This document shows positions 59,599-61,314 of a stretch of 64,000 nt of DNA, piece after piece. A program made the translations under genes and the position numbers. Positions within the stretch are counted from its first letter, which is position 1. Each line of letters opens with the position of its first letter. The DNA is from Halorussus limi (lineage in GTDB: Archaea; Halobacteriota; Halobacteria; Halobacteriales; Haladaptataceae), in the NCBI RefSeq assembly GCF_023238205.1, contig NZ_CP096659.1, positions 496,001 through 560,000 on the forward strand, given 5' to 3'. The notes below the pieces were generated by a model. The model saw only the letters and a list, made by a program, of their open reading frames with translations. It did no database searches and had not been told where the DNA came from.

Positions 59599-60669
59599 TC
59601 AGTCGGCCGTGACGGGAGTTCGGCTCTGCTCGCCGGCCATCTCCACCACGTCGTCGAAGAAACCGAGCGTGTCGTGCGGGCCGGGGTTCGCCTCGGGGTG
59701 GTACTGGCGGGTCAGGACCTGCAGGTCGTCGCTCTCCAGTCCCTCGGCGGTGTCGTCGTTGACGTTGACCTGCGTCACGTCGAGTTCCGGGCCGGGTTCG
59801 GCGACGGTGTAGCCGTGGTTCTGAGTGGTCATGACGACCTTGTCGCTCCGGAGGTCCCGGACGGGTTGGTTGACCCCGCGGTGGCCGAACGCCATCTTCT
59901 CGGTGGTGCCGCCGAGCGCGCGGGCGACTATCTGTTGGCCGAGACAGATGCCCGCCAGCGGAACCTCGCCGACGAACTCCGAGACCAGCGCCTCGGCGGC
60001 TTCGAAGTTCGCGGGGTCGCCGGGACCGTTGGAGACGAACAGGACGTCGGGGTCGAGGTCGGCGACTTCGGCCGGCGTCACGTCGTAGGGCAGGACGTGG
60101 ACCGTCGCGTCGCGTTCGAGCAGCGACTCCACGATGGACCCCTTCGCGCCGCAGTCGACGAGCGCGACATCCGGGCCGTCGCCGCCCTCGTAGGTCGTCT
60201 GGCTCGAGACGCTGACCTGCGCGCCAATGTCCGTGTGGTCGCTCATCCCCGGACAGTCCGCGAGCGCGTCCTTCGCCTTCTCGGGCGAGGCGTCGGGTCC
60301 GGCCGAGATGCCGCACTTCATCGCGCCGCCCTCTCGAATCTGGCCGACGAGGTCGCGCGTGTCGAGTTTGTCCACCGCGGGGACGCCCTCGCTTTCGAGC
60401 CACGAGGCGACGTCGTCGGTGAGTTCTCGCGCGACGACCGCGCGCGGGTGGACTCGCTCGTCCTCGAAGCGCTCCTCTCGGACGCCGTAGTTGCCGATGA
60501 GGGGGTAGGAGAACGTGAGTACCTGCTCCTCGTAGGAGGGGTCGGTCAGGCTCTCTTCGTACCCGGTGTACGCGGTCGTGAATACCAGTTCGCCGTGGGA
60601 CGTGCCCGGAGCGCGACAGCGCGCCTCCACGACGCTGCCGCCTTCCAGTGCGACGTATGCGGCCGACAT
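59599..60669 (-). CDS. carA: Carbamoyl-phosphate synthase small (glutaminase) subunit
   Basis: 356-residue glutamine amidotransferase subunit that feeds ammonia to CarB for pyrimidine and arginine synthesis. The N-terminal domain starts AYVALEGGSVVEARCRAPG; the class I triad is C in GICLGQQIVARALGG (about 245), H and E in HPEANPGPHDT (about 333). carB is not in the window. I use ATG 60669 because family members begin M(x)AYVALEG and the TATA box TTTATACGG (60693-60701) is at the right distance; a start four codons upstream is possible. Confidence 0.96.
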   Translation of the reverse strand: MSAAYVALEGGSVVEARCRAPGTSHGELVFTTAYTGYEESLTDPSYEEQVLTFSYPLIGNYGVREERFEDERVHPRAVVARELTDDVASWLESEGVPAVDKLDTRDLVGQIREGGAMKCGISAGPDASPEKAKDALADCPGMSDHTDIGAQVSVSSQTTYEGGDGPDVALVDCGAKGSIVESLLERDATVHVLPYDVTPAEVADLDPDVLFVSNGPGDPANFEAAEALVSEFVGEVPLAGICLGQQIVARALGGTTEKMAFGHRGVNQPVRDLRSDKVVMTTQNHGYTVAEPGPELDVTQVNVNDDTAEGLESDDLQVLTRQYHPEANPGPHDTLGFFDDVVEMAGEQSRTPVTAD

Positions 60670-60692
60670 TACGAGATTCATACGAAACCCGG

Positions 60693-60701
60693 CCGTATAA
60701 A
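60693..60701 (-). promoter_or_regulatory. TATA box of carA
   Basis: TTTATACGG on the minus strand lies 24-32 nt before the ATG at 60669, implying a leaderless mRNA. The 19-bp palindrome begins 18 nt further upstream. Confidence 0.5.
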
Positions 60702-60718
60702 CCTTGCTTTCGTAGTGA

Positions 60719-60737
60719 GATTACGAATTTCGTAATC
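60719..60737. promoter_or_regulatory. Perfect 19-bp palindrome between carA and lrp
   Basis: GATTACGAATTTCGTAATC is a perfect palindrome about a central T. It is midway between the divergent carA and Lrp genes, just upstream of the carA TATA box and about 35 nt before the lrp ATG. A related half-site ATTACGA recurs at 60668-60674 by the carA start. This is the expected form and place for an Lrp/AsnC operator. Confidence 0.7.
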
Positions 60738-60771: not shown

Positions 60772-61185
60772 ATGGACGAACTCGACCGCGAAATCCTGAG
60801 CATCCTCCGCCGAGACGCTCGAAAACCGTACACGGAGATCGCCGAAGAGGTGGGTACCTCGGAGGGAACGGTGCGCAACCGCGTCGAGCGCATGACCGAC
60901 GACGGCGTCATCGAGCGGTTCACCATCGCCACCCAGACCGGCAACGTGAAGGCGATGATAGAACTCGACGTGGCGGTGGACGTCAACACCTCGGACCTCG
61001 GCGAGCGAGTAGCCGACTGGGAGCAGGTGGACTTCGTCTGGCAGGTCTCGGGCGAGGAGGACATCGTGCTGGTCGTGGACGCCGCCGACACCCAGAGCGT
61101 GAATCAACTGATAACGAGAGCCCGCGAGTTGGAGGAGGTCGTGAACACGAAGACGCGACTGATTCTCGACGAGAAACTGGGGTGA
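60772..61185 (+). CDS. lrp: Lrp/AsnC family transcriptional regulator
   Basis: 137-residue regulator. N-terminal HTH: DELDREILSILRRDARKPYT ... VGTSEGTVRNRVERM (about 3-55). C-terminal RAM domain with WEQVDFVWQVSGEEDIVLVV and LILDEKLG; the ligand pocket would bind an amino acid. It is divergent from carA across a perfect palindrome, so autoregulation and control of carA by an amino acid (perhaps glutamine or arginine) are likely. Confidence 0.93.
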   Translation: MDELDREILSILRRDARKPYTEIAEEVGTSEGTVRNRVERMTDDGVIERFTIATQTGNVKAMIELDVAVDVNTSDLGERVADWEQVDFVWQVSGEEDIVLVVDAADTQSVNQLITRARELEEVVNTKTRLILDEKLG

Positions 61186-61314
61186 CGCTTCGGCAGGTCC
61201 GCCGACTCCGATTACGAAAAACGAATCCGGTCGAAACGGAACCTCGGACCCGAGGTTTCGAACGTCGGAGTTCTCCGCGCGCGGCCCGTCGGCGGACCCC
61301 GCCTCGCCGACGCG

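Follow-up and report, generated by a model that had tools for sequence, protein, structure and literature searches.

Background

The closest described relative of the locus analysed here is the Trh3 circuit of H. salinarum, reported by Ashworth et al. 2014. In this source, Trh3 shares a promoter with carA, 18 species retain two conserved signals within that promoter together with a motif at carB, and ChIP places Trh3 at the trh3, carA and carB promoters; the correlation of trh3 expression with carA and carB is weak (0.45 and 0.40) and not significant (PMC4177876). Trh3, whose locus tag is VNG1816G, is also tied by ChIP to translation-associated genes (PMC4236453), and its ligand is predicted to be arginine or lysine (PMC4177876, PMC4236453). 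A second related system is LysM: in Sulfolobus, lysM lies within lysYZM and controls lysWXJK (PMC8578740, PMC4046817). In E. coli, finally, carAB is regulated by ArgR and PurR, as cited in PMC4177876.

The present locus was found in a 64-kb stretch of DNA, hereafter the window, from a haloarchaeon near Halorussus. As in the Trh3 circuit, it contains an Lrp-like gene that is divergent from carA and shares a promoter with it, with conserved signals, predicted here to be operators, in this common promoter and at carB; carB is adjacent in H. salinarum but lies 55 kb away here, and the Trh3 targets seen by ChIP in H. salinarum are wider than the narrow target set observed in our comparison. We regard the regulator, by its gene position and neighbourhood, as the counterpart of H. 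salinarum Trh3, and the palindrome described below is an instance of the circuit published in 2014 for one species. Likeness to LysM of Sulfolobus/Saccharolobus, the lysWXJK activator, appears in the best NCBIfam model of the regulator and in a tie to LysW genes in two genomes (G006 and G008). LysM is amino-acid responsive, a property that is predicted here, and the differences are a model score that stays below the cut-off and a main predicted target that is carbamoyl-phosphate synthase (CPS), not the lysW genes. With E. coli carAB the locus would have in common the joint control of both CPS subunits, arginine being a signal in E. coli, but there one operon is controlled, whereas here two separate transcription units would come under a common operator. 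ArgR and PurR are themselves unrelated to the haloarchaeal Lrp regulator. In the open-licence PMC literature, as far as its available portions go, we found no description of the array geometry, the two-copy loci, the co-loss with the regulator or the LysW-operon relatives reported below.

The carA-lrp locus and its palindrome

The original prediction had named the two genes, and profile searches agree with both names and coordinates. The small subunit of CPS, carA, is encoded on the minus strand (59599-60669, in an ORF that opens at 60681) and matches TIGR01368 over the cut-off with 355 bits. Its start is likely to be the ATG at 60669 instead of 60681, because TTTATA lies about 30 bp ahead of the former and an ATG is kept there in relatives. 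This TTTATA (60696-60701, minus strand) is, judging by its position, the probable carA TATA element, and its columns 60697-60700 are conserved at 1.6-1.9 bits. On the plus strand, the gene at 60772-61185 (lrp) encodes an Lrp/AsnC (feast/famine) regulator with the two domains of this class, an AsnC-type helix-turn-helix (PF13404, 64.5 bits) and a RAM ligand domain (PF01037, 47.6 bits), both over cut-off. Its closest named relatives, in Halorussus aquaticus and H. ruber, share 98% identity. We call it LysM-like since its top NCBIfam model is NF040947 LysM, at 117.1 bits and thus under the curated cut-off of 180; the regulators of G008 and G006 score 113.1 and 120.2, also under 180.

The 19-bp palindrome announced between the two genes, GATTACGAATTTCGTAATC, is indeed located at 60719-60737; its 9-bp arms match perfectly across a single central base. 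It has no second occurrence at up to 3 mismatches within the window and appears in 0 of 100 dinucleotide shuffles of it. Perfect palindromes with 9-bp arms and a 0-1 bp spacer number 5 in the window, compared with 0-3 in 20 mononucleotide shuffles, and palindromy by itself was therefore dropped as evidence for an operator; near-palindromes being common in the window, the case for an operator is based on conservation. The heptamer ATTACGA has 6 copies in the window, 2 of them within the palindrome, against a chance mean of 2.2 (3 of 100 shuffles reach 6), and the copy expected by the carA start is present at 60668. The window's second-best score with the weight matrix described below, 10.8, belongs to ATTACGAAAAACGAATC at 61211-61227, 26 bp past the lrp stop codon and away from any promoter.

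The three-site array at carA and carB

Sites were aligned from the 250 bp upstream of each Lrp gene, using the best 80 of 239 confirmed loci. A 17-mer at 0-3 mismatches from ATTACGAANTTCGTAAT precedes lrp in all 80 of these relatives, so that the palindrome is kept with the carA-lrp pair, a dependence on which the original prediction had staked its reading; among evenly drawn genomes, the site stands ahead of lrp in 58 of the 58 that have the regulator. Measured from the end of the 17-mer, the distance to the lrp start is nearly fixed, at 30-35 bp in 77/80 relatives and 76-79 bp in the other three (L060, L071, L077). Three further elements are conserved in the same alignment: a TTCGWAR half-site 20 bp off, TTAT at the expected carA TATA and a dyad over the carA start. 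The operator thus comprises site 1, the palindrome GATTACGAATTTCGTAATC with its core RTTACGAAWTTCGTAAY (60719-60737, unstranded); site 2, the half-site TTCGTAG on the plus strand (60709-60715), which abuts the carA BRE region; and site 3, the dyad ATTACGAGATTCATACG (60668-60684, unstranded), which reads TACGAgatrCGTA in most relatives. Placement between two divergent promoters had been anticipated and is what we see, since the palindrome immediately precedes the carA promoter and stands about 44 bp ahead of the lrp start. The recurring ATTACGA at 60668 exists as claimed but is not a lone half-site: it forms the left arm of the site 3 dyad and belongs to the third site of a fixed three-site array. 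The start of site 3 is offset from site 1 by 52 bp in 64/81 rows and by 51 bp in 17/81 (80 relatives plus the window). The middle site at carA has the form of a half-site, which is why offset 20 is top-scoring for it in just 46 of 81 rows. Scores of the third site are poor and exceed 0 in 51 of 58 genomes. We infer that the offsets of 20, 31 and 51-52 bp correspond to about 2, 3 and 5 helical turns.

When the whole genome was searched at up to 3 mismatches, 8 matches came up. The second best of them (2 mismatches) precedes carB by about 80 bp, and exactly 20 bp beyond it stands another site, with 3 mismatches. For the comparison across genomes, a weight matrix was built solely from 22 distinct lrp-carA sites and used to scan the 200 bp upstream of carB in 59 evenly drawn Halobacteriales genomes (at least 90% complete), and the background was taken from 300 windows of equal size within the analysed stretch, whose top score is 9.0. 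The region upstream of carB exceeds this value in 56 of the 59 genomes, with a median of 18.5 (the carB start is misplaced in rows L123, L165 and L170, which shifts the distances to the start and leaves site presence unaffected). The geometry of the carB array is that of carA: site 2 is at +20 and the best third site at +51 in 54/56. The TATA offset is 36-39 at carA and within 48-53 at carB, about 12 bp apart, while the array spacing is constant. The sites of the array thus keep their spacing to one another but not to the core promoter, a pattern suggestive of one oligomer that occupies all of them.

Besides carB, the original prediction had pointed to gln and arg genes as places for further copies; carB has a version of the palindrome, but arg, pyrB and gln of this genome do not. 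The highest scores, 5.9 in the genome's arg cluster (15 kb), -7.4 at pyrB and 6.1 in the glnA/lrp region, are all below the background top of 9.0. Among 30 lysX loci scanned, from 58 genomes with a lysX match, a site above 9 was found in G008 only. Operator-like matches with no more than 2 mismatches are rare, numbering 1-7 in each of the 59 genomes, and a reversed control pattern is absent from 52/59. Among the matches listed, the recurrent ones are at lrp-carA and carB: the 29 loci L130-L158 from this search comprise 26 at lrp-carA, 2 at carB and 1 at neither. Twenty extra operator-like matches among those listed, 4 of them outside ORFs of at least 80 aa, have no common target that we could see. 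Another perfect palindrome, ACTACGAAATTCGTAGT, is intergenic in two genomes of different families (L325:1001-1017 and L332:1001-1017), and the adjoining ORFs have equal sizes in both (262 and 119 aa) and low third-position G+C; it is possibly a mobile element or the site of another regulator.

Absent, differently placed and separated operators

We consider it very probable that the LysM-like Lrp protein encoded next to the palindrome, the counterpart of Trh3, has its operator here, with the palindrome as the strongest among three dimer sites, and that it controls lrp itself, carA and, at a distance, the unlinked carB. The site, its conservation, the array, the target set and the co-occurrence with the regulator are direct observations, and the genomes that depart from the common arrangement provide comparisons for the rest.

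Regulator and carA are neighbours in 56 of the 58 genomes that have the regulator gene. Operators at both lrp-carA and carB are present in 56/56 genomes with a carA-adjacent lrp versus 0/3 otherwise, a contrast that represents about two evolutionary events and not 59 independent ones, and for this reason no probability is given for it. G007 is the sole genome of the 59 without a regulator match (at E 1e-16); its carA and carB have no operator, with best scores of 2.7 and 3.2 in the regions examined, and lysX is still present. An ORF resembling isopentenyl-diphosphate isomerase by eye lies beside carA in G007 (L285:2367-2942) and beside carB in the genome of the window (L197:537-1124), which hints that G007, where the regulator is lost, has been rearranged. 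In the two deep-branching genomes, G006 and G008, the regulator (69% and 60% identity) heads a complete LysW-type arginine/lysine operon, lrp-lysW-lysX-argC-argB/lysZ-argD/lysJ-argE/lysK by NCBIfam (L284:6788-12294 in G006, L228:191-5729 in G008), preceded in G008 by a carbamate kinase gene (arcC) just upstream. The palindromes GTTACGAAGTTCGTAAC and TTTACGAAGTTCGTAAG stand 192 and 38 bp ahead of lrp in G006 and G008, respectively, and no operator is found at carA and carB of these two genomes. This linkage of the regulator to the LysW pathway is absent from the genome of the window and from the other carA-linked genomes.

These cases bear on the possibility that one or more other Lrp-type proteins, singly or as hetero-oligomers, bind the site and that the neighbouring gene is not its main user. 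Candidates exist, as the genome has 11 PF01037 matches, 9 of them over cut-off, H. salinarum Lrp-like proteins have motifs and targets in common (PMC4236453), and Ss-LrpB and LysM co-bind in Sulfolobus (PMC4046817). The operators nevertheless track this particular gene, since the only genome without it has none and the palindrome accompanies the gene where it has another position, and no strong site was found at the other Lrp loci examined (best score 6.1, beside glnA). We judge this explanation improbable.

The distance between carA and lrp provides a second comparison. Of the 56 genomes in which the two genes are neighbours, 53 have 85-98 bp between them and one strong site there, and the remaining three have 648-789 bp; the distance is 3096 bp in L072 (Haloparvum sedimenti) and 387 bp in L085 (Halorubrum alkaliphilum). 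All five separated loci have an own strong site 1 both at carA and at lrp, and the lrp-side copies retain the third site at offset 51 in 5/5, although those of L072 and L085 have no carA start and no recognisable carA TATA. In Haloparvum sedimenti, a large ORF that resembles penicillin acylase by eye lies between the two genes (L072:1051-3534). If the palindrome served autoregulation of lrp only, its proximity to carA being a by-product of divergent gene order, one could understand that lrp retains its own copy in the separated loci and that G006 and G008 have a site at lrp and none at carA or carB. Against this stand the strong site 1 retained at carA in the same 5 loci, the array at the unlinked carB in 56/59 genomes and the ChIP signal of Trh3 at carB in H. 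salinarum (PMC4177876), which make such a restricted role very improbable.

Least probable of all is that the conserved sequence is a core promoter (BRE/TATA) or a start-region RNA element and not a regulator site: site 3 does overlap the start of carA and the TATA of carB, and BRE-like A residues adjoin site 2, but the spacing of the sites is constant while the TATA shifts by about 12 bp, the lrp-side copies of L072 and L085 keep the sites without carA TATA and start, and G007 has both genes without the sites.

Proposed regulatory mechanism

Under control by the adjacent regulator, an Lrp oligomer would fill the three sites together, since they face roughly the same side of the helix (offsets 0, 20 and 51-52 bp, or roughly 2 and 5 turns), and would wrap or bend about 70 bp of DNA. 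Site 1, over or beside the lrp promoter, may mediate autorepression; its place immediately ahead of the promoters of carA and carB would be the one at which archaeal Lrp activators bind. Site 3 covers the start of carA or the TATA of carB, so that binding there could repress. The cell may in this way set both CPS subunits together. The original prediction had envisaged a response to amino acids; arginine would be the likeliest signal and lysine the next, and the regulator would activate when no arginine is bound. The oligomer, the ligand and the sign of control are those parts of the proposal that we infer.

In one haloarchaeon, the LysW-type (ArgW) genes make arginine and not lysine, and the deletion strains are arginine auxotrophs (PMC10433800). 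Because of the LysW-operon link, the role of the ArgW genes in making arginine and the published arginine/lysine predictions, arginine is our first choice of ligand, a prediction that we hold with modest confidence. As to the sign, PMC2995911 describes archaeal Lrp activators as binding just upstream of the promoter and proposes that the effector turns off activation by LysM. Since sites 1 and 2 fit the position of an archaeal Lrp activator at carA and carB, and site 3 fits repression, we favour activation in the absence of arginine, as a guess at little better than even odds.

Evolution of the regulator and its target

A carB tree (256 columns, 46 rows) was built from 34 of the 59 Halobacteriales and rooted with 12 outgroup genomes of the phylum; with a warning for long branches, it unites G006 and G008 (100/99) in a lineage that is sister to the remaining 32 sampled Halobacteriales (100/99). 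G007 falls within this main 32-genome clade, beside G025. In the regulator's own tree, the position of G006 and G008 was not resolved. Because of the rooting of the carB tree and the likeness to the Sulfolobus lysM arrangement, location of the regulator in the arginine/lysine operon is more likely the ancestral state.

We see about an even chance that the regulator and the palindrome form a unit that switched target inside one pathway. In such a history, the unit headed a LysW-type arginine operon in the ancestor, as is still the case in G006 and G008 and much like lysM among the LysW genes of Sulfolobus. The main haloarchaeal line would have seen it transferred to the neighbourhood of carA and would have gained a corresponding three-site array at the unlinked carB, while its arginine operon no longer had the unit. 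Splitting of carA from lrp by inserted DNA would then have doubled the operator, and loss of the regulator, as in G007, would have led to operator decay. If this is true, feedback would have shifted from the ornithine branch to the common carbamoyl-phosphate step.

Conclusions

Carbamoyl phosphate feeds both arginine and pyrimidine synthesis. The genes carA and carB, which form one operon in E. coli, are apart in haloarchaea and are seemingly coordinated by a single regulator that has few targets and a strictly laid-out operator. Separated, duplicated and lost operators serve as natural tests in the comparison. It may also allow one to trace how a regulator, together with its site, switched targets within one pathway, with arginine as a concrete candidate ligand.
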